DNA of 64,000 nt from Rhizobium sp. JAB6 (GTDB lineage Bacteria > Pseudomonadota > Alphaproteobacteria > Rhizobiales > Rhizobiaceae). Shown piece by piece: positions 4,950 through 23,425 of the stretch. Each line of letters opens with the position of its first letter. The stretch's first letter is position 1. The position numbers and the translations under genes were made by a program. Under the pieces are notes generated by a model. That model saw nothing but the letters and a program-made list of their open reading frames with translations. It had not been told where the DNA came from and did no database searches. The stretch covers positions 591,001 to 655,000 of the forward strand of contig NZ_PYJQ01000001.1 in assembly GCF_003024605.1 (NCBI RefSeq), given 5' to 3'.

Positions 4950-5201
4950 GAGCGAGAACTCCAAGCGGAATGTTGAACTGGCTCTCGCCTGGGGCGGAGT
5001 GCCGGAATCATGGATTCCGCCTGATCATCGCGCACGTAGCTTGCCTGAAACCGAAGCAGCGGCCGAAAATGCCTTTACGCATTTTTAGCTACGTTCCGGA
5101 GAGCCGCTTACCGGCGGATCGAATTTAAGAAATTGGCAAGCAATGAATGCGACTTTCCTTGCGACATGACGGGTTTGGTCCTCTAGGAAAATGGATCGAG
5201 G

Positions 5202-5249
5202 GGCATGAAGCTGCTCCGTCATCGCCGGTATCTCCAGTCCGGTATGTCC
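5202..5249 (+). promoter_or_regulatory. Conserved flagellin leader element, copy 1
   Basis: GGCATGA at 5202, CCGG at 5225-5228, CCGG at 5239-5242, then TATGTCC, ending 33 bases before the flaA start codon. The same order of blocks at similar distance precedes the other three flagellin genes. The two CCGG blocks can pair as a 4-bp stem. It may be an mRNA leader element or part of the promoter. Confidence 0.6.
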
Positions 5250-5282
5250 TCCTTTAGTATCCAGTTTCCAGGGGACACTTCT

Positions 5283-6203
5283 ATGACCAGCATTATTACC
5301 AACAATTCCGCAATGGCCGCTCTCCAGACGCTGCGCGGCATCAGCAGCAACCTGCAGGACACCCAGGCTGCCGTTTCTTCGGGCCTGCGCATCTCCAAGG
5401 CTTCCGACAACGCCGCCTACTGGTCGATCGCCACCAGCATGAAGTCCGACAACGGCGCCATCGGCGCAGTTTCCGACGCTCTCGGCCTCGGCGCCGCTAA
5501 GGTCGATACCGCATCGACGGCTGTCACCAGCTCGATCGACATCGTCGGCCAGATCAAGGACAAGCTTGCAACCGCCATGGAAGGTTCGGTTGACAAGAAG
5601 TCGGTTCAGGAAGAAATCGGCCAGCTGCAGCAGCAGCTGCAGAGCGTTGCCCAGTCGGCTTCGTTCAACGGCGAAAACTGGGTCATGGCTCAGAACAACG
5701 GCTCGGCTGCCGTCGTTTCCTCCTTCATCCGCGGCACCAACGGCACCGTTTCGGTCAGCACGACCGCCTACAAGTTTGATACCGGCGCAACCGGCAACGT
5801 TCTGTTCGGCGCGAATGCCAACGGCACGATCAAGACGGATGCGGGTATTCTCGGCACGAAGCAGACGATCGGCTCCAATCAGTACTCCGTCTTCAGCCTG
5901 GACATCAGCAAGATGACCTCCGGCGAAATCTCCAGCGCGCTGAACATGGTTCAGACCGCTCTGAATTCCATGACCAGCATGGGTTCGAAGCTCGGCTCGA
6001 TTTCGTCGCGCATCGACCTGCAGACGAGCTTTGCTTCCTCGCTCTCCGACTCGATTCAGTCGGGCGTGGGCAAGCTGGTTGACGCCAACATGGAACAGGA
6101 ATCGAGCAAGCTGTCCGCTCTGCAGACGCAGCAGCAGTTGGCCATTCAGTCGCTCTCGATCGCCAATTCCTCGAACCAGCAGATCCTGTCGCTCTTCCGC
6201 TAA
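5283..6203 (+). CDS. flaA: Flagellin 1
   Basis: The product is a 306-residue rhizobial flagellin, the filament subunit exported by the flagellar type III system. The start is placed at 5283 (MTSIITNNSAMAALQTLR), because all rhizobial flagellins begin this way and AGGGGA lies 8 bases upstream; the in-frame ATG at 5205 falls inside the conserved leader element. The N-terminal D0/D1 domain (to about residue 140) and C-terminal D1/D0 domain (SKLSALQTQQQLAIQSLSIA) are intact, with a short variable centre. The product differs from flagellin 2 at about 18 of 306 positions. The gene is followed by a hairpin and then a rho-independent terminator, so it is probably monocistronic. Confidence 0.95.
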   Translation: MTSIITNNSAMAALQTLRGISSNLQDTQAAVSSGLRISKASDNAAYWSIATSMKSDNGAIGAVSDALGLGAAKVDTASTAVTSSIDIVGQIKDKLATAMEGSVDKKSVQEEIGQLQQQLQSVAQSASFNGENWVMAQNNGSAAVVSSFIRGTNGTVSVSTTAYKFDTGATGNVLFGANANGTIKTDAGILGTKQTIGSNQYSVFSLDISKMTSGEISSALNMVQTALNSMTSMGSKLGSISSRIDLQTSFASSLSDSIQSGVGKLVDANMEQESSKLSALQTQQQLAIQSLSIANSSNQQILSLFR

Positions 6204-6211
6204 TAGGAAGC

Positions 6212-6230
6212 ATCAACGCCGCGCGTTGAT
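6212..6230 (+). other. 3' UTR hairpin of flagellin 1
   Basis: An 8-bp inverted repeat (6212-6219 with 6223-6230, loop CGC) starts 8 bases after the flagellin 1 stop codon and precedes the true terminator. Flagellin 2 has an equivalent hairpin after the same TAATAGGAAG sequence, with two compensatory base-pair changes. Confidence 0.55.
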
Positions 6231-6252
6231 CGTAAATCCTAAACAACAAGTT

Positions 6253-6283
6253 AACCGCGCCTACCTAAGGCGCGGTTTTTTTT
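6253..6283 (+). terminator. Rho-independent terminator of flagellin 1
   Basis: A 9-bp stem AACCGCGCC/GGCGCGGTT (6253-6261, 6269-6277) with a 7-base loop runs directly into eight T residues. This is a textbook intrinsic terminator. Confidence 0.9.
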
Positions 6284-6309
6284 ATATTTTTCACGCAAAC
6301 GCGGTTCAG

Positions 6310-6331
6310 CTTTTCTTAACTATATTGCTGT
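6310..6331 (+). promoter_or_regulatory. Shared upstream (promoter) block of flagellin 2
   Basis: The block reads CTTTTnTTAACTnTATTGCT followed by GT. It is identical to the block upstream of flagellin 3 at 20 of 22 positions, and both lie 72-74 bases before the conserved leader element. Flagellin 4 has a looser copy. It is a candidate flagellin promoter. No sigma-70 -35/-10 pair is clear in it. Confidence 0.5.
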
Positions 6332-6355
6332 TTCTTAGGACCATCGAAGCGGCGA

Positions 6356-6380
6356 GTTAACCTTAACGAATTTGGTTAAC
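6356..6380 (+). promoter_or_regulatory. Inverted repeat GTTAACC-N11-GGTTAAC upstream of flagellin 2
   Basis: GTTAACC (6356-6362) and GGTTAAC (6374-6380) form a perfect 7-bp dyad immediately before the conserved leader element. Flagellin 3 has the same dyad in the same place. It could be an operator or a hairpin in the mRNA leader. Confidence 0.5.
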
Positions 6381-6381
6381 A

Positions 6382-6426
6382 GGCATGATGCTGAATGCCG
6401 TTACCGGTTTTAGGTCCGGAATGTCC
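6382..6426 (+). promoter_or_regulatory. Conserved flagellin leader element, copy 2
   Basis: GGCATGATGCTGA at 6382, CCGTTA before CCGG (6404-6407), CCGG (6416-6419), then AATGTCC, ending 34 bases before the flagellin 2 start. It matches copy 3 closely and copies 1 and 4 in block order. Confidence 0.62.
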
Positions 6427-6460
6427 CTTATTCAACCACTGCCAAAAGGGGCAAAATATC

Positions 6461-7381
6461 ATGACGAGCATTCTTACCAATAACGCCGCAATGGCCGCCC
6501 TCCAGACGTTGCGCTCTATCGGTGCGAACCTGCAGGAAACACAGGGCGCCGTTTCTTCCGGCCTGCGTATCTCCAAGGCTTCCGACAACGCCGCCTACTG
6601 GTCGATCGCCACCAGCATGAAGTCCGACAACGGCGCCATCGGCGCAGTTTCCGACGCTCTCGGCCTCGGCGCCGCTAAGGTCGATACGGCGACCACTGCC
6701 GTCACCAGCGCGATCGACATCGTCGGCCAGATCAAGAACAAGCTTGCAACCGCCATGGAAGCCTCGGTCGACAAGAAGTCGGTTCAGGAAGAAATCGGTC
6801 AGCTGCAGCAGCAGCTGCAGAGCGTTGCCCAGTCGGCTTCGTTCAACGGCGAAAACTGGGTCGTGGCTCAGAACAACGGCTCGGCTGCCGTCGTTTCCTC
6901 CTTCATCCGCGGCACCAACGGCACCGTTTCGATCAGCACGACCGCCTACAAGTTCGATACCGGCGCAACCGGCAACGTTCTGTTCGGCGCGAGCGCCAAC
7001 GGCACGATCCAGACGGATTCGGGTATTCTCGGCACGAAGCAGACGATCGGCTCCAATCAGTACTCCGTCTTCAGCCTGGACATCAGCAAGATGACCTCCG
7101 GCGAAATCTCCAGCGCGCTGAACATGGTTCAGACCGCTCTGAATTCCATGACCAGCATGGGTTCGAAGCTCGGCTCGATTTCGTCGCGCATCGACCTGCA
7201 GACGAGCTTTGCTTCCTCGCTCTCCGACTCGATTCAGTCGGGCGTGGGCAAGCTGGTTGACGCCAACATGGAACAGGAATCGAGCAAGCTGTCCGCTCTG
7301 CAGACGCAGCAGCAGCTGGCCGTCCAGTCGCTCTCGATCGCCAACTCCTCGAGCCAGCAGATCCTGTCGCTCTTCCGTTAA
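6461..7381 (+). CDS. flaB: Flagellin 2
   Basis: The product has 306 residues and is a near-duplicate of flagellin 1. The start is set at 6461 (MTSILTNNAAMAALQTLR), with AAGGGG about 10 bases upstream. Both conserved terminal domains are complete, so this is a functional filament subunit. Bases 7021-7315 are identical to 5843-6137 of flagellin 1, including silent sites, which points to recent gene conversion or duplication. The leader carries the shared upstream block, the GTTAACC dyad and the GCATGA/CCGG element. The 3' side has a hairpin and a terminator arranged as in flagellin 1. Confidence 0.95.
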   Translation: MTSILTNNAAMAALQTLRSIGANLQETQGAVSSGLRISKASDNAAYWSIATSMKSDNGAIGAVSDALGLGAAKVDTATTAVTSAIDIVGQIKNKLATAMEASVDKKSVQEEIGQLQQQLQSVAQSASFNGENWVVAQNNGSAAVVSSFIRGTNGTVSISTTAYKFDTGATGNVLFGASANGTIQTDSGILGTKQTIGSNQYSVFSLDISKMTSGEISSALNMVQTALNSMTSMGSKLGSISSRIDLQTSFASSLSDSIQSGVGKLVDANMEQESSKLSALQTQQQLAVQSLSIANSSSQQILSLFR

Positions 7382-7389
7382 TAGGAAGT

Positions 7390-7409
7390 GCCAACGCTCA
7401 AGCGTTGGC
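7390..7409 (+). other. 3' UTR hairpin of flagellin 2
   Basis: GCCAACGC (7390-7397) pairs with GCGTTGGC (7402-7409) across a TCAA loop. Compared with the hairpin after flagellin 1, two A/T pairs have become G/C pairs on both arms, which supports an RNA structure. Confidence 0.55.
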
Positions 7410-7432
7410 TCGCCACATGGGAAAAGACCTTG

Positions 7433-7460
7433 CCGCGCCTTCCTTGGAGGGCGCGGTTTT
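7433..7460 (+). terminator. Rho-independent terminator of flagellin 2
   Basis: A 7-bp GC-rich stem CCGCGCC/GGCGCGG (7433-7439, 7450-7456) with a 10-base loop is followed by TTTTCGTTT. It resembles the flagellin 1 terminator stem. Confidence 0.75.
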
Positions 7461-7534
7461 CGTTTCGCCCCGTCGCCGTCTTTCCGCCGCACGCCTGGAA
7501 GGGAAAACCGCTGTGCCCTTTGCTTGGAATTGCT

Positions 7535-8785
7535 CTAAAATGCACGGCTCGCCCGTCGCCTGACTGCATCGATGAAGCCATCGAAGAGCTTGCGCATGGC
7601 AACCTGCTTGTAAGGGTAGACGATGGGATCATCCATGTTGTGGACCACCATTGCCACGTCCACCTCGAAGACCAGCAGGCGGCCGTCGGGAAGTTCTGCG
7701 CAATCGATGCCGAAATAGTCGAGGTCGATATGCCGGCAGAGCGCTGCAAAGCTCTCTGCATGGCGGATGGCGAAATCTCGATCGAAATCCTCCATCCAGG
7801 CTTGCTCGACGGCGCGTTTTGCTGCGTTCCGGTCCATGCCGGCGCTCAGATAATGCACGATCCAGTGGTCAGAGAGCGCCATGTGGCTGGCGAAAGCCTT
7901 GCCATCGATGAAGACCACGCGCTGCTTGTTATAATAGCCGTCGGCTCCGCGGAAATCGACGAAGGGCGCCACATAGAGCTCGGATGCCGGCTGGGTGGCC
8001 AGAAAGGCTGACAGTTCGGCGGGGTCGGCTATGCGCTCCATTCCGTTGCCCGCATGCGTACTGATCGGGCGCACCACCAGCGGAAATGCCAGGCCTTTGG
8101 CGCTGTCTCTCAGCTGCCGGGCGCCGGCTGCGACGGCAGAAAGATCGCCGCGCGGGATGCGATGGGTCGTGGGCGAGAGGAGCGACGGTTCGCTTGCCAG
8201 CATTGCGCTCACCCCGTCGCGCGTCAGACCGGCGATCAGCTTCGGGTTGCGGTTCATCACCGGACCGTCGTACCCGGCAAGCAGCCCATGCATATGGGCA
8301 AGCAGGGGGCCGTTTTCCGTCGACTCTCCGATCGCCATGAAGGCGGTGTCATGATCCGGCAGATCGGTGAGCGCGGTGGTTCGCAGATCGACATAGTGCA
8401 GCAACAGCACGCAATCGCTGTCCGCAAGCAGGAAGTCCAGCGGCGTATTGGCCATGAAATCGCCCTCGGTAACGAAGGCCAGCAGCCGCGGCCCGGCTCC
8501 GCTGCCGTGGACCACACAGAAGTTGCGGCTGAGTTGCACGGCATTCTTCAGGATTTGGCGAGCTTCCTCGGTGCGGCCAAGCGTTTGCAGGATGATCGCC
8601 AAGTCCATAAGCGCGGCGGCATCGTTCGGATCGGCGGTTACGCGTTGCATGAGCCCGTTCCATAACGGCGTCACATCGCCGCCGACATAGACGAGCGACA
8701 CGATCTTCTGCATGCCGAAAATTCGCGGTGCTTTCGATGGGCCGGACGAAGCCGGATCGATGATGGGAGCTTTGGTCATCAGCAT
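7535..8785 (-). CDS. TPR / ATP-grasp domain protein of unknown substrate
   Basis: The product has 416 residues. Residues about 40-90 look like a TPR pair (DPNDAAALMDLAIILQTLGRTEEARQIL). The C-terminal half resembles an ATP-grasp ligase: FPLVVRPISTHAGNGM as the nucleotide-binding part, a LYVAPFVDFRG segment, and an acidic end LPDGRLLVFEVDVAMVVHN that fits the Mg-binding strand. ATP-grasp enzymes join a carboxylate to an amine or thiol through an acyl phosphate. The start codon overlaps the stop of the upstream decarboxylase gene by 7 bases (an ATG at 8779 would make TGATG), so the two form a coupled pair. An amine made by the decarboxylase could be its substrate; that is inference. No specific family name is assigned. 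Confidence 0.7.
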   Translation of the reverse strand: MLMTKAPIIDPASSGPSKAPRIFGMQKIVSLVYVGGDVTPLWNGLMQRVTADPNDAAALMDLAIILQTLGRTEEARQILKNAVQLSRNFCVVHGSGAGPRLLAFVTEGDFMANTPLDFLLADSDCVLLLHYVDLRTTALTDLPDHDTAFMAIGESTENGPLLAHMHGLLAGYDGPVMNRNPKLIAGLTRDGVSAMLASEPSLLSPTTHRIPRGDLSAVAAGARQLRDSAKGLAFPLVVRPISTHAGNGMERIADPAELSAFLATQPASELYVAPFVDFRGADGYYNKQRVVFIDGKAFASHMALSDHWIVHYLSAGMDRNAAKRAVEQAWMEDFDRDFAIRHAESFAALCRHIDLDYFGIDCAELPDGRLLVFEVDVAMVVHNMDDPIVYPYKQVAMRKLFDGFIDAVRRRASRAF

Positions 8786-10266
8786 TGGGGGAGATCCTGT
8801 CGAGAACCGATTGTCAAAACGCTAAGAACGAGCTGGTCGATATCCGCCTCTCGCGTGCGATGGTTTACGATCGCGGCGCGGATTGCCGGCTGCCCGTTCA
8901 GATGTGTCAGGGATGGAGCGACGCGGCCTTCGGCATGCAGCCGCTCGACGATATGCGCGTTGATGGACGCAGGTATCGACCCGTCCATGCCGACATAGGC
9001 GAAGCAGACGATGTTGAGCGCGACCGGCGCAAGCAGTTTCAGGGCAGATTCCTGTTCGATGCGCTCTGCCAGCCGGCGGGCCAGCCTGCAGTTGGCGCTC
9101 ATTGCCTCCCCCAATGCTTTGACGCCATAGGTTTTCAGCGTGAACCAGGTCTTCAGCGCCCTGAAGCCGCGCGACAGATCCGGGCCGTAGTCGCAGGGCC
9201 ACCAGTCTCCGCCTGCAAGTCCGGTGGCTGCCCGGCTGAGATAGGCGGCATCCGATGCAAAGGTTTGCCGCTGCCACTCGCTGTCCCGCACGAGGAGGAA
9301 GCCGGCATCGTAAGGCACTTGGCCCCATTTGTGGAAATCGAAGGCGAGCGAATCGCAGCTGTCGATCCCCGCGAACAGATGCGCAAGGCCGGGACTGAGG
9401 ACACCGAGGGCGCCCAGCGCGCCGTCGATGTGAAAATGGAGATCGTAGCTGTGGGCGATGTGCCGCAAACCGGCGAGATCGTCGACGGCGCCGGTATTGA
9501 CCGTTCCCGCACTGCCAATGACGAGGAACGGCACGAGGCCTTCCTGCCTGTCGCGAAGGATCGCCCGTTCCAGCGCATCGACATCGATCTGGCCGAATTC
9601 GTTGACGGCAACGCGCCGGAGCTGGTTGCTGCCGATGCCCGCCATTTCGAAGGCGCGAGGGATGCAGCCATGCACTTCGCTCGAGGCGTACGCGACGAGC
9701 CGGGTTTCATCGGACAGGCCGGTTGCACGAACGTCGCGGCCGAGCTTGCGGCATCTGGCGATCTGCACTGCGACGAAATTGGCCTGCGATGCACCCGTCA
9801 GGAATATGCCGCCTGCCGTTTCCGGAAAGGAGAAGATCTCGCGCGTCCAGCGGATGATCTGGCGCTCGACCTCGATCGGCATATGATCGCGGCCGCCGAG
9901 ATTGGCATTCAGCCCGCCGGCGAGCATTTCGGCGAGCATGCCGGTAACGGTGCTGCCGCCCTGGACCCAGCCCATGAAACCCGGGTGAATGTTGCCGCTG
10001 CCGTAGGGGAGGATGTTGTCCCGAAAAATGGCGTGGACGTCAGCCAGATCGCTGCCTTCGACGGGCAGCGGCATATCGAATTCGGCACGAACGGAGGAGG
10101 GGGCGGGCTGCCAGACCGGCTTCGTTGCGAGCGCCTGGAGATGATCGAACATGTCATCGAGCATGCGATGGCCTTGATTACGCAGGGCCTGCCAGTCGTC
10201 GGGGTCGAGACTTGTTCGCTCGTGACGATCGACCGCCGCTCCTCCGGCCTCTTGCAAACTGAACAT
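8779..10266 (-). CDS. Pyridoxal phosphate-dependent group II amino acid decarboxylase
   Basis: The product has 495 residues from the ATG at 10266 (MFSLQEAGGAAVD). The open frame extends 87 codons further upstream, but that part lacks family similarity and lies in the flagellin 3 promoter region. The fold is that of aromatic-L-amino-acid/glutamate decarboxylases: SGNIHPGFMGWVQGG near the N-terminus, FLTGASQANFVAV, the pyridine-binding Asp in HFHIDGALGALG, and the PLP lysine in FDFHKWGQVPYDAG. The substrate cannot be read from the sequence. It is the first gene of a two-gene reverse unit with the ATP-grasp gene and is transcribed away from flagellin 3. It interrupts what would otherwise be a run of flagellin genes. 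Confidence 0.87.
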   Translation of the reverse strand: MFSLQEAGGAAVDRHERTSLDPDDWQALRNQGHRMLDDMFDHLQALATKPVWQPAPSSVRAEFDMPLPVEGSDLADVHAIFRDNILPYGSGNIHPGFMGWVQGGSTVTGMLAEMLAGGLNANLGGRDHMPIEVERQIIRWTREIFSFPETAGGIFLTGASQANFVAVQIARCRKLGRDVRATGLSDETRLVAYASSEVHGCIPRAFEMAGIGSNQLRRVAVNEFGQIDVDALERAILRDRQEGLVPFLVIGSAGTVNTGAVDDLAGLRHIAHSYDLHFHIDGALGALGVLSPGLAHLFAGIDSCDSLAFDFHKWGQVPYDAGFLLVRDSEWQRQTFASDAAYLSRAATGLAGGDWWPCDYGPDLSRGFRALKTWFTLKTYGVKALGEAMSANCRLARRLAERIEQESALKLLAPVALNIVCFAYVGMDGSIPASINAHIVERLHAEGRVAPSLTHLNGQPAIRAAIVNHRTREADIDQLVLSVLTIGSRQDLPQC

Positions 10267-10531
10267 ATGAACCTCGCGTGTGGCCGTCGCTGCTGGCACC
10301 GTCGCCGGAACGTTACCAATAAAATGCCGCCCTCGTTGCCCGGCACGAGGCGGATAATGCCTATCTACGACGCCGAAGGTGGCGCGAGGCTGACGTGCGG
10401 CTTGCTGCCCTGCCCAGGCGGCCAGGCGGATCGACAATGACATGCCGACACATGCTGGACGGGTCAGCCCCTTTCCTGTTCCAAGAGAGATAGAACAGCC
10501 GCTTCCGTTAACTTTTGCGGGCGGCATTAAC

Positions 10532-10553
10532 CTTTTATTAACTCTATTGCTGT
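10532..10553 (+). promoter_or_regulatory. Shared upstream (promoter) block of flagellin 3
   Basis: This matches the flagellin 2 block at 20 of 22 positions (CTTTTATTAACTCTATTGCT, then GT). It lies in the 415-base gap between the divergent decarboxylase start and flagellin 3. Confidence 0.5.
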
Positions 10554-10576
10554 CAGTTGCGGCTAACGCAACGGTT

Positions 10577-10604
10577 GGTTAACCTCTCCTAAGAGGCGGT
10601 TAAC
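10577..10604 (+). promoter_or_regulatory. Inverted repeat GTTAACC-N13-GGTTAAC upstream of flagellin 3
   Basis: GGTTAACC (10577-10584) and GGTTAAC (10598-10604) frame a short inner pairing UCU/AGA. The position relative to the leader element is the same as in flagellin 2. Confidence 0.5.
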
Positions 10605-10605
10605 A

Positions 10606-10649
10606 AGCATGAGGCTGATTGCCGTTCCCGGCCGCAGACCGGAATGTCC
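10606..10649 (+). promoter_or_regulatory. Conserved flagellin leader element, copy 3
   Basis: AGCATGAGGCTGATTGCCG at 10606, CCGG at 10628-10631 and 10639-10642, then AATGTCC, ending 32 bases before the flagellin 3 start. It is the closest match to copy 2. Confidence 0.62.
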
Positions 10650-10681
10650 CTTCCAAAGTCAGCCATAAGGGGCACTTTTCG

Positions 10682-11602
10682 ATGACCAGCATCCTCACCA
10701 ACGACGCGGCGATGTCCGCTCTTCAGACCCTGCGCGGCATCAACTCGAATCTGCAGGATACCCAGAGCCGCGTTTCCTCGGGCTACAAGGTTGCGAAGGC
10801 AGCCGACAATGCCGCTTATTGGTCGATCGCAACAACCATGCGTTCCGACAATGGCGCGCTTTCCGCCGTTTCGGACGCATTGGGCCTGGGCGCGGCCAAG
10901 GTCGATACGGCCTATGCCGCAATGGACAATGCCATCACGGTCGTCCAGCAGATCAAGGACAAGCTCGTCGCCGCAACTGAAAGCAGCGTTTCGAAGGCTG
11001 ATATCCAGGAGGAAGTCACCCAGCTTCAGCAGCAGCTGGAAAGCATTGCGCAGTCAGCATCCTTCTCCGGACAAAACTGGATGTATGCGGCGAATGGCGC
11101 GTCGGCTTCCGTCGTTTCCTCCTTCGTGCGCAATAATAACGGTACGGTTTCCGTCAACAGCACCAGCTACGCCTTCGATACCAGCTCGCAGGGTAACGTC
11201 CTGTTCGGCGCGGCGAGCAACGGGGCGATCGATACGAATTCGGGCATTCTCGGCAGCAAGCAGACCATCAGCGGAACCCCCTATTCCGTTTTCAGCCTCG
11301 ATATCACCAACATGACCAGCGGCGATATCGGCAAGGCGATGAACCTCGTGCAGGGTGCCCTCAATGCCATGAACAGCACGGCTTCGCAGCTCGGCTCCCT
11401 CACGACCCGCATCGATCTGCAGACGAGCTTCGTTTCCACGTTGCATGATACGATCGATTCCGGTGTCGGCAAGCTCGTCGATGCGAACATGGAAGAGGAG
11501 TCGAGCAAGCTGTCCGCGCTGCAGACCCAGCAGCAACTGGCAATCCAATCGCTGCAGATTGCCAATTCGAGCGCGCAGAATGTTCTCGCTCTCTTCAAGT
11601 GA
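10682..11602 (+). CDS. Flagellin 3
   Basis: This is another 306-residue flagellin (MTSILTNDAAMSALQTLRG), with AAGGGGC about 11 bases upstream of the chosen start. It keeps the conserved N-terminal domain (SRVSSGYKVAKAADNAAYW) and C-terminal domain (LVDANMEEESSKLSALQTQQQLAIQSL), but is clearly more diverged from flagellins 1 and 2 than these are from each other. It probably contributes a minor or secondary subunit, as complex rhizobial filaments contain several flagellins. No clear terminator hairpin was found after it, unlike flagellins 1 and 2. The symbols flaC and flaD are used differently between species, so none is given. Confidence 0.93.
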   Translation: MTSILTNDAAMSALQTLRGINSNLQDTQSRVSSGYKVAKAADNAAYWSIATTMRSDNGALSAVSDALGLGAAKVDTAYAAMDNAITVVQQIKDKLVAATESSVSKADIQEEVTQLQQQLESIAQSASFSGQNWMYAANGASASVVSSFVRNNNGTVSVNSTSYAFDTSSQGNVLFGAASNGAIDTNSGILGSKQTISGTPYSVFSLDITNMTSGDIGKAMNLVQGALNAMNSTASQLGSLTTRIDLQTSFVSTLHDTIDSGVGKLVDANMEEESSKLSALQTQQQLAIQSLQIANSSAQNVLALFK

Positions 11603-11665
11603 GCCTTGACTGGAGCTTGCGTTGAGATCGCGCGGCGGCATTTCCCTCTTGTCGTCGCGTATAAG

Positions 11666-11687
11666 CTTTTGTTAACGTTGCCGCTAA
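11666..11687 (+). promoter_or_regulatory. Possible upstream block of flagellin 4
   Basis: CTTTTGTTAACGTTGCCGCT is a looser match to the blocks before flagellins 2 and 3. Its distance to the leader element (about 124 bases) is longer than in those two genes, so this call is weaker. Confidence 0.35.
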
Positions 11688-11789
11688 TTGATTTGCAGTC
11701 TATGCGCAGGTCCGGCTTTCGTTCTCCTTCCAAGCGGTTGCCGGACTGCGCTTTAGCGACGGGCCGTGCTGGGATCTTTCCCGCTGGTG

Positions 11790-11831
11790 GGCATGAGGCC
11801 AATCGTTGCTGCCGGATCGGTCCGGCTTGCC
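11790..11831 (+). promoter_or_regulatory. Conserved flagellin leader element, copy 4
   Basis: GGCATGAGGCCAATCG at 11790, CCGG at 11812-11815 and 11822-11825, then CTTGCC, ending 27 bases before the flagellin 4 start. The block order is kept although the flagellin itself is divergent. The outer base pair next to the CCGG stem is G-C here. Confidence 0.55.
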
Positions 11832-11858: not shown

Positions 11859-12839
11859 ATGAGCAATGTGACGACGAATCCTACCACGTCGGCGGCGCTG
11901 ACCGTGTTGCGCGGTATCAACAAAGATCTCGATGTCGTACAGCAGCAGGTTTCGTCCGGTTACCGCATTCAGACGGCGAGCGACGATCCCACCTATTGGT
12001 CGATGGCGACCACCATGCGCTCGGACCGGAGCAGCCTTTCCACGATCACGGATGCGCTTGGTCTCGGCGCCTCGAAGGTCGATACCGCATCCACCGCCAT
12101 GGATACGGTCGTCAGCCTGCTGACCCAGATCCAGTCCAAACTGGTTTCCGCAAAGGAATCGGGCACAAACAAGAATGCGATCAATGCCGATATTCAGCAG
12201 CTCAAGGACCAGCTGCAATCCGTTACCCAATCGGCATCCTTCTCCGGCGAGAACTGGCTTTACAACACCGATCAGCAAGCCACTACGCAGCAATCGGTGA
12301 TCAGCAACTTCACGCGGGGCACAGGCGGCGAGATTAACTTTACGACGATCGATTACGACAGTTCCCAAACCCTGATGATCGATACCGCCCAACCGCAGCG
12401 GGGCTTGCTGACGAAGAATGTCGACGCAAGCACGCTCGGCGCTCCGGGAACCAGCGGCGGGACGGCCCGCAACTACTACCTCCTTGCCGCCAGCGGCGGT
12501 TCGACACCATCAGGTGGAACGGAGATCGCGATCTCCAGCAGCACGACGGACGACGAATTGACGGACATGATCAATGTCACCAATTCGCTGCTGAAATCGG
12601 CCACATCAGCCGATTCGACCCTGGGTCTGATGTCGTCCAACATCAGCGACCAGTCGGATTATATTTCCAAGCTGGGCGACGCTATCAAGAGCAGTGTCGG
12701 CGACCTGGTCGACACCAACATGGAAGAGGCCTCGGCGCGGCAGAGCGCCCTGCAGACGGCGCAGCAGATGGGTGTCCAGGCATTGTCGATCGCCAATAGC
12801 ATGGCGAGCAAGGTTCTGATCATCCTTCAATCGAAATGA
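11859..12839 (+). CDS. Flagellin 4 (divergent)
   Basis: The product has 326 residues from MSNVTTNPTTSAALTVLRG at 11859. It is longer than the other three and more divergent, with an enlarged central region (about residues 150-240, rich in Ser, Thr and Gly: SGGSTPSGGTEIAISSS). The terminal filament-forming domains are conserved (VSSGYRIQTASDDPTYWSMATTMRSD and LVDTNMEEASARQSALQTAQQMGVQALSIA). No strong Shine-Dalgarno is visible (GGAATTACGG upstream), so translation may be weak. An in-frame ATG at 11792 lies in the leader element and would add 22 residues not seen in flagellins; it was rejected as the start. Confidence 0.9.
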   Translation: MSNVTTNPTTSAALTVLRGINKDLDVVQQQVSSGYRIQTASDDPTYWSMATTMRSDRSSLSTITDALGLGASKVDTASTAMDTVVSLLTQIQSKLVSAKESGTNKNAINADIQQLKDQLQSVTQSASFSGENWLYNTDQQATTQQSVISNFTRGTGGEINFTTIDYDSSQTLMIDTAQPQRGLLTKNVDASTLGAPGTSGGTARNYYLLAASGGSTPSGGTEIAISSSTTDDELTDMINVTNSLLKSATSADSTLGLMSSNISDQSDYISKLGDAIKSSVGDLVDTNMEEASARQSALQTAQQMGVQALSIANSMASKVLIILQSK

Positions 12840-22628: not shown

Positions 22629-22976
22629 ATGTATCAGTTCTCATATGCGGAAGTCATGCAGGATGCTGTGGCCGACGCCAAGGAACGAGAACGCCAAGTT
22701 CTGGACCGGTCGATAGCTCTTCTCTCCGCGGCCCGTGATGCGGAAAAATACGGTCGTGAGGCGATCGAGGCACTCTTCTATACGCGCCGCGTATGGGTGA
22801 GCTTCGTCGACGACCTGAAAAGCCCGGAGAACCAGCTCAATGTCGAACTGCGGGCCAACCTTATCTCGATCGCCATTTGGATTTTGAAGGAATGCGATCG
22901 AATTCGGCTGCGCCAGTCGGAAAATTATCAAGGCATCATAGATGTCACCACCATCATCAGGGATGGACTTAAATGA
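22629..22976 (+). CDS. flaF: Flagellar biosynthesis regulator FlaF
   Basis: The product is a 115-residue alphaproteobacterial protein that promotes flagellin synthesis or secretion and acts opposite to FlbT in Caulobacter. The sequence starts [22 protein letters not shown] and has the conserved [11 protein letters not shown] and [13 protein letters not shown] segments. AGGAAGG lies 8 bases before the ATG. The gene overlaps flbT by 4 bases (ATGA). Confidence 0.92.
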
Positions 22977-23425
22977 AAAGTACGCTTCGCATATCGCTCA
23001 AAGCCGGGGAAAAGATCTTTATCAATGGGGCCGTCCTGCGTGTCGATCGCAAGGTTGCCCTGGAATTCCTGAATGATGTGACGTTCCTGCTCGAAAACCA
23101 CGTGCTTCAGCCCGAGGACGCGACGACGCCTCTGCGTCAGCTCTATTTCATCGCGCAGATGATCCTTATCAATCCGGAGGGCAAGGAGCAGTCGACGGCT
23201 ATGTTCCGCAAGTCGATCGTCATGCTACTGTCGTGCTTCCACAATGAGGAAGTGCTTGCCGAGCTCAAGCGCATCGACGGCCTTGTCTCCACCGGCCGCG
23301 CCTTTGACGCGCTGAAGGCGATCCGCAGCTTGTACCCGATCGAGGACCATATTCTGAACAGCCAGGAAATGCCGGCGGCAACGATCGAGCACATCCGCCG
23401 GGAGATCGCTCCATGGCAGCGGTAG
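22973..23425 (+). CDS. flbT: Flagellin mRNA regulator FlbT
   Basis: The product has 150 residues and matches FlbT ([47 protein letters not shown]). In Caulobacter, FlbT binds the 5' untranslated region of flagellin mRNA and destabilises it when assembly is blocked. Here four flagellin genes share a conserved leader element, which makes a similar role plausible. The gene overlaps flaF by 4 bases and flgD by 13 bases. Confidence 0.92.

Follow-up and report, generated by a model that had tools for sequence, protein, structure and literature searches.

FlbT has been reported to bind the 5′ untranslated region (UTR) of flagellin mRNA in Caulobacter, where it represses, whereas in Brucella it activates, by a mechanism that is described as unclear (PMC4347634, PMC3930126, PMC8781033). 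In Caulobacter, it is reported to act together with the flagellin FljJ until FljJ is exported (PMC7591256). Here we describe a conserved element upstream of each of the four flagellin genes in a 64,000-nucleotide stretch of the genome of Rhizobium sp. JAB6 (contig NZ_PYJQ01000001.1, positions 591,001 to 655,000; the whole stretch is hereafter called the window). The window also carries flaF and flbT, the latter as recognized in an initial annotation made from the sequence alone and matched by both Pfam and NCBIfam. Judging from comparative sequence analysis, we consider it rather probable that the element is a structured 5′ leader of late motility mRNAs, that its third main helix closes the Shine–Dalgarno (SD) sequence and that FlbT is the most likely protein to read it.

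The pattern GCATGANGC-N8-20-CCGG-N3-14-CCGG has exactly four matches on the two strands of the window (5203-5242, 6383-6419, 10607-10642 and 11791-11825), one before each flagellin and none elsewhere, whereas shuffled versions of the window contain 0.05 matches on average and four were reached in 0 of 100 shuffles. The four leader copies proposed in the initial annotation are real and had been placed correctly to within 1–2 bases; the distances from the copy ends to the ATG (33, 34, 32 and 27 bases) are also as claimed. A covariance model of the element ranks the same four leaders at the top within the window (60.1, 50.5, 47.6 and 29.1 bits), with the next match at 14.9. Flagellins 1 and 2 are 94% identical, and the best named relatives of flagellin 1 belong to R. 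lusitanum, R. tropici, R. dioscoreae and R. freirei, that is, to the tropici/lusitanum group of Rhizobium.

The predicted fold begins with a variable hairpin, H0, followed by H1 (GGC-AUGAN-GCC), a linker, H2 (CCGG/CCGG) and H3, in which (A)UGUCC(C) pairs with the SD sequence and which is present before three of the four window flagellins. RNAalifold, run from sequences alone on 18 aligned leaders, returned exactly the 15 pairs that had been drawn by hand; these leaders were picked from a plain 41-row MAFFT alignment, largely for having H2 in register. Covariation was assessed in an alignment fitted to the model, comprising 134 matches (130 distinct rows) drawn from 100 selected sources of the order Hyphomicrobiales. 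Two-sided changes that keep the pairing occur in 12 of the 15 base pairs and amount to 79 cells, compared with 20.3 +/- 3.8 after shuffling (0/500 as high). Furthermore, 93.4% of cells are paired in the 130 distinct leaders, whereas controls in which the arms were slid reach at most 51.3%, with at most 25 two-sided cells in at most 7 pairs. The outer pair of H1, for example, is GC in 93, GU in 13 and AU in 7 of the 130, and the H2 loops span 2–14 bases, which is the range that the pattern allowed. H1 and H3 were also found on the plain MAFFT alignment (41 rows), with two-sided changes in four of nine pairs. The order-wide leader alignment and covariance-model search, proposed as a check in the initial annotation, thus support the pairs by two-sided changes and place a conserved leader with RNA secondary structure upstream of the flagellins.

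The spread of the element was followed in flagellin loci of relatives, using patterns for presence and spacing that themselves bound spacing and loop length. The first set, assembled from 60 genomes of the genus (JAB6 included; 30 loci taken) and 80 named loci, yielded 240 usable flagellin starts out of 245 and 217 distinct 120-base upstream regions. GCATnA...CCGG...CCGG is present in 209 of the 217; among the eight misses, two have CGGG/CCCG in place and one has merely a longer loop. In two wider sets of flagellin upstream regions, the pattern was found in 69 of 95 (a few genes appear twice in this set) and in 53 of 80. In the set of 80, an incorrect codon was used to delimit two regions (L279, L280), and a single match (L284) is oddly spaced. 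Inspection by eye of the misses among the 95 revealed changed arms that still pair, namely GTCGG/CCGAC (L163), GCCGA/TCGGC (L144) and CCTG/CAGG (L148). The absence before relatives' flagellins that would have spoken against the element was thus not what these sets show.

The AUG within GCATGA is in frame with the gene in copies 1 and 4 (78 and 66 bases) and out of frame in copies 2 and 3 (76 and 73), as had been noted initially. A leader peptide or upstream reading frame starting at this AUG could draw on the two in-frame copies, both of which are open, and is nevertheless extremely improbable: the in-frame, +1 and +2 classes hold 73, 76 and 51 leaders in the first set and 35, 42 and 33 in the wider sets, and 41 of the 73 and 29 of the 35 in-frame AUGs, respectively, meet a stop before the gene. 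Since the frames are spread over all three among these 310 leaders, there is no conserved peptide, and we rejected this explanation; together with covariation, the result bears out the view that the element acts as nucleic acid.

Flagellins that deviate from the canonical leader form a separate observation. GTG or TTG starts are found in 12 of 32 flagellins with neither the H1 motif nor the hairpin (for example, L153, L157, L173-175, L236, L243, L246, L248, L255, L259 and L287), in 4 of 27 that have just the H1 motif and in 3 of 316 with a canonical leader (Fisher 2e-11 for no leader versus canonical, kinship between genes ignored). The leaderless genes could correspond to an early, FljJ-like flagellin that escapes control. 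The JAB6 genome itself has a fifth flagellin-like gene (G000:C11:339094-340074, minus strand; L005) with an apparent GTG start, GCGCATGAGCGC upstream and no CCGG hairpin. In another locus (L188, 684-757, minus strand), a 57.4-bit leader match precedes a frame that is not a plain flagellin and contains, by eye, an AAYWSI-like stretch.

H0 adjoins H1 on the upstream side and is very variable in sequence (GTTAACC/GGTTAAC, TTGGGCG/CGCCCAA, GACT/AGTC). Its stem score is 16.0 in 131 representatives, compared with 11.7 after shuffling that preserves single-base content only; none of 100 shuffled sets scored as high, and 37% of the representatives are singly below 0.05. Further upstream, an unsupervised motif search (-125 to -40 from GCAT) returned TTAA-N7-TTAACC, a full CtrA site, in 115 of 142 upstream regions, and in 99 of the 115 it lies 60–90 bases before GCAT. 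The CtrA consensus box is given as TTAA-N7-TTAA (PMC6180460); within the window it is full before flagellin 3, imperfect before flagellins 1 and 2, and out of place before flagellin 4. In Sinorhizobium meliloti, CtrA is reported to bind and activate the flaA promoter, with flaA, flaB and flaC as direct targets (PMC4433202), CtrA motifs have been described upstream of flaA, flaC, flaD and mcpE (PMC3616915), and CtrA sites with an activating role are located close to -35 (PMC6180460). Because the CtrA-type box is usually ~80 bases upstream, the element is probably part of a transcribed leader and not of the promoter. From the position of the box and the published sites near -35, we infer that transcription starts 30–50 bases ahead of GCATGA and that the leader is ~110–130 bases long.

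A core promoter block had been offered initially as an alternative to an RNA leader. A DNA-binding site of a class III activator would match the near-fixed spacing from GCATGA to CCGG (15–17 bases in 303 of 314 leaders, with 8–36 allowed by the pattern) as well as an RNA does, CCGG is a palindrome in DNA, and the element is found before flagellin and chemoreceptor genes, both of which are class III in S. meliloti (PMC6180460). However, two-sided pair changes, G-U pairs, the variable loops, the pairing with the SD sequence and the CtrA-type box ~80 bases upstream of the element all speak for RNA, and we regard a promoter block or DNA site as improbable.

The SD pairing was scored between the 12 nucleotides that follow H2 and the 22 immediately preceding the start codon. 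For 56 first-set representatives, the duplex averages -8.9 kcal/mol, compared with -5.5 for shuffled anti-SD segments and -8.2 for non-cognate partners, and 23 of 10,000 permutations reach the cognate mean (kinship ignored). The paired sequences differ: UGUCCUCC/GGGGACA in flagellin 1, UGUCCCUU/AAGGGGCA in flagellins 2 and 3, and UGUCCC/GGGACA elsewhere. Moreover, the SD sequence is unpaired at 0.29 versus 0.38 with a shuffled leader, the value being lower in 85 of 113 leaders; for flagellins 1, 3 and 4 of the window the values are 0.00, 0.23 and 0.30 versus 0.28, 0.38 and 0.44. Flagellin 4 has a weak SD sequence, and the five representatives closest to it form duplexes of just -5.3 to -7.6. 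The 5–8-bp stem over the SD sequence in copies 1–3 is what an RNA thermometer or a self-contained SD hairpin would need, H3 alone setting flagellin output by melting or folding kinetics. H1 and H2, however, are well conserved and are kept where H3 is missing, and no Rfam thermometer family appeared among the leaders scanned, which leaves this explanation quite improbable.

The initial claim that the element precedes all four flagellins was borne out, but flagellins are not its sole carriers, as it also precedes chemoreceptor genes outside the window. Of 13 Rhizobium genomes, 12 contain one additional match to the model, located either ~29 kb away from the flagellin genes or on a different contig; the thirteenth genome is 82% complete. 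The JAB6 copy (C1:566927-567004) lies upstream of a protoglobin chemoreceptor (MCPsignal 2e-45, Protoglobin 3e-32); this genome has an additional weak match of 23.2 bits that is not assigned to a gene. Five of the further Rhizobium copies were inspected. Among 12 further regions from other genomes, chosen by position, one (L384) is a flagellin and 10 of the other 11 were scanned, all encoding methyl-accepting chemotaxis proteins, seven with Protoglobin. In 16 chemoreceptor leaders H1 is paired in 100% and H2 in 96.9% of cells, and H3 is mostly missing. Because these leaders keep H1 and H2 mostly without H3, H1–linker–H2 is the core of the element and H3 a flagellin addition. The chemoreceptor copies, like H0 and the UGUCC(C)/SD pairing of copies 1–3, had been overlooked initially.

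FlbT (PF07378) is found in 100 of 150 genomes of the order. Forty FlbT sequences of the order split into two lineages of 20 each with support of 100/100 (alignments A5 and A6 take in 38 of the 40, leaving out L358 and L365), and each lineage has a separate NCBIfam model (three proteins tested). All 20 lineage A proteins come from genomes with leaders, and no leader was found in the lineage B neighbourhoods scanned. Furthermore, 20 loci within the order, most of them around FlbT of the other type and a different kind of flagellin (N-terminus ~M-S-D-I-T-L-S), score 11.6 bits at most. Four genomes (G093, G177, G279 and G285) carry both lineages, and in each of them the distance between the lineage A gene and leader flagellins is no more than ~13 kb. 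A search of 38 genomes gave 37/38, which is not a frequency, as these genomes were picked for known such flagellins. FlbT as the reader of the leader is plausible and fits this lineage match. A structured leader read by something else, such as a small RNA, an RNase or flagellin itself, is less likely, though it deserves some weight: the structural evidence is neutral on the identity of the reader, and FlbT is said to act in opposite directions in Brucella and Caulobacter (PMC4347634). On the other hand, the leader tracks one FlbT lineage, also within the four genomes with both, and FlbT is the flagellin-leader protein reported in the class, according to reviews.

The predicted FlbT structure consists of a five-stranded N-terminal domain and a helical domain (predicted local distance difference test score 91.8 for the whole, 89.4 for the N-terminal 54 residues). 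VIA-align of the helical domain placed FliS chains at ranks 1, 2, 4, 6 and 8 (best Z 9.4, root-mean-square deviation 2.2, 79 residues), and Foldseek returned nothing below E 0.4; for a helical bundle the match is below ~Z 13, so the resemblance to FliS may be mere likeness. We also considered FlbT as a CsrA-like protein owing to a resemblance by eye, which profile comparison left unsupported (8% and 2% probability); CsrA was not among the matches listed in the FlbT comparisons. As a separate observation, flagellins beside lineage B FlbT (L317-L336) share by eye another leader, with a GCTCAGAA-GAGC-like hairpin and a CCTAGAAAGG-like pairing at the SD sequence, which could be the counterpart element for that lineage.

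Taken together, CtrA-type promoters would drive late (class III) motility genes whose mRNAs carry a structured 5′ leader with H1, the linker and H2 as its core. In most flagellin mRNAs, H2 would be followed by H3, UGUCC(C) pairing with the SD sequence and keeping translation low. A protein reading H1–linker–H2, which we infer to be most likely FlbT aided by FlaF and the level of unexported flagellin, would decide whether H3 stays closed, such that flagellin would be made once the hook-basal body can export it. The sequence data support the element with its base pairs and distribution, the SD pairing and the link to one FlbT lineage; the transcription start, the translational effect and the part played by FlbT, including its sign, are proposals. 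A bolder suggestion, which we offer only tentatively, is that an undescribed RNA family spanning the order, composed of H0-H1-H2 plus H3 in most flagellin leaders, unites flagellin and chemoreceptor mRNAs in one translational regulon and is read by its own FlbT lineage, whose predicted FliS-like helical half could sense unexported flagellin directly.

Several observations weigh against an FlbT-read leader that hides the SD sequence. On the plain MAFFT alignment H2 was missed, its left arm being out of register, and the alignments fitted to the covariance model (A4, A9) are biased towards it. When folded one by one, the four window leaders show no unusual stability (z -0.8, -1.9, 0.1 and -0.1). 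The CtrA-type motif counts come without a shuffled control, and the text of an agrobacterial start-site paper gives no flagellin transcription starts (PMC10469942). The canonical pattern is missing from 26 of 95 and 27 of 80 upstream regions of the wider sets. In the longer fold, flagellin 2 has a more accessible SD sequence than with shuffled leaders (0.45 versus 0.34), flagellin 4 is without H3, and the letters at the inner five pairs of H3 are missing in 9–13 of the 16 chemoreceptor leaders; because flagellin 4 and most chemoreceptor leaders are without H3, hiding the SD sequence is not the whole function. Finally, the match with one FlbT lineage would be expected equally from joint inheritance of the whole flagellar cluster. 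According to the literature, it is unknown what switches on class III genes in S. meliloti (PMC6180460) and unclear in what way FlbT acts on flagellin mRNA (PMC4347634). An RNA element with named base pairs makes both open to point-mutation and binding experiments, and the covariance model lists further members of the regulon, chemoreceptors included.

Features of the window are collected in Table 1, in which the first coordinate of each flagellin gene is its start codon. Between flagellins 2 and 3, the minus strand (7535-10269) carries a gene with a weak tetratricopeptide repeat match and a pyridoxal-dependent decarboxylase gene; judging from match positions, a similar gap separates flagellins in some relatives and not in others.

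Table 1. Coordinates of leader elements and flagellar genes in the window
Feature	Position	Strand	Basis or remark
CtrA-type box (TTAA-N7-..), flagellin 1	5125..5142	+	Motif site -78 from GCAT; second half-site imperfect
H0 hairpin, flagellin 1	5174..5200 (arms 5174-5181 / 5193-5200)	+	Stem scoring versus shuffles
H1 GGC-AUGAA-GCU, flagellin 1	5202..5212	+	Covariance model, covariation
H2 GCCGG...CCGGU, flagellin 1	5224..5243	+	Fold, covariance model
H3, flagellin 1 (UGUCC 5245-5249 / GGACA 5273-5277; overlaps SD AGGGGA 5270-5275 in part)	5245..5277	+	
Flagellin 1 gene	5283..6203	+	Pfam Flagellin_N/C
CtrA-type box, flagellin 2	6305..6322	+	First half-site imperfect
H0 GTTAACC/GGTTAAC, flagellin 2	6356..6380	+	
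H1, flagellin 2	6382..6392	+	Covariance model
H2 CCGG/CCGG, flagellin 2	6404..6419	+	Fold, covariance model
H3, flagellin 2 (UGUCCCUU 6422-6429 / AAGGGGCA 6446-6453, SD)	6422..6453	+	Missing from best fold of longer leader
Flagellin 2 gene	6461..7381	+	
CtrA-type box TTAA-N7-TTAAC, flagellin 3	10527..10544	+	Motif search
H0 GTTAACC/GGTTAAC, flagellin 3	10578..10604	+	
H1 AGC-AUGAG-GCU, flagellin 3 (outer pair A-U)	10606..10616	+	Covariance model, covariation
H2, flagellin 3	10628..10642	+	Covariance model; missing from best single-sequence fold
H3, flagellin 3 (UGUCCCUU 10645-10652 / AAGGGGCA 10667-10674, SD)	10645..10674	+	
Flagellin 3 gene	10682..11602	+	
H1 GGC-AUGAG-GCC, flagellin 4	11790..11800	+	Covariance model, 29.1 bits for whole match
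H2 GCCGGA-UCGG-UCCGGC, flagellin 4 (no H3 after H2)	11811..11826	+	Fold, covariance model
Flagellin 4 gene	11859..12839	+	Pfam
flaF	22629..22976	+	Pfam FlaF 5e-34
flbT, proposed reader of leader	22973..23425	+	Pfam FlbT 2e-42; NCBIfam NF001995

Among known RNA motifs, flg-Rhizobiales (RF01736; PMC2864571) is likewise associated with flagellar genes of the same order. It had no covariance match over the cut-off in 21 relatives and none at the leaders scanned, and its printed matches lie, by eye, at the start of flgF-like genes; we therefore ruled out that the element is RF01736. Separately, RF01736 exceeds its cut-off in 2 of 121 genomes, and the matches at flgF-like starts in L124-L133 have, by eye, fliL-like genes adjoining. 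No family of Rfam 15 matched the leaders scanned, other Rfam matches being weak and away from them. The literature searched contains no description of the element, with subscription papers mostly outside the search, so that parts of it may have been noticed earlier.

In Bacillus and Campylobacter, CsrA–FliW couples flagellin translation to assembly via the mRNA leader. The present leader resembles that system in idea, flagellin translation being tied to assembly through an mRNA leader, and an analogous system with FlbT and FlaF has been suggested (PMC4894983). A csrA gene was found in none of the 13 genomes searched (and in three control genomes), which speaks against a CsrA-controlled leader. 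The class-wide model search (289 genomes) scored just 15 candidates per genome and is thus weak on absence, so flagellin loci were used to judge it. Outside the order, 29 flagellin loci, with no named Caulobacter locus among them, gave no match to the covariance model at E <= 0.05 (maximum 15.1 bits), so any relationship with other leaders of the class escapes detection at this level. Leaders that sequester the SD sequence are well known from ribosomal protein mRNAs and thermometers. The H3/SD pairing is alike, but here a two-hairpin core precedes it and occurs mostly without H3 before chemoreceptors. The FlbT-bound flagellin 5′ UTRs of C. crescentus and B. melitensis share with this locus the gene class, flbT with flaF, a leader and proposed translational control (PMC4347634, PMC3930126, PMC8781033). 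The element is probably a translational leader of flagellin mRNA, of a known kind, with a conserved architecture of its own.

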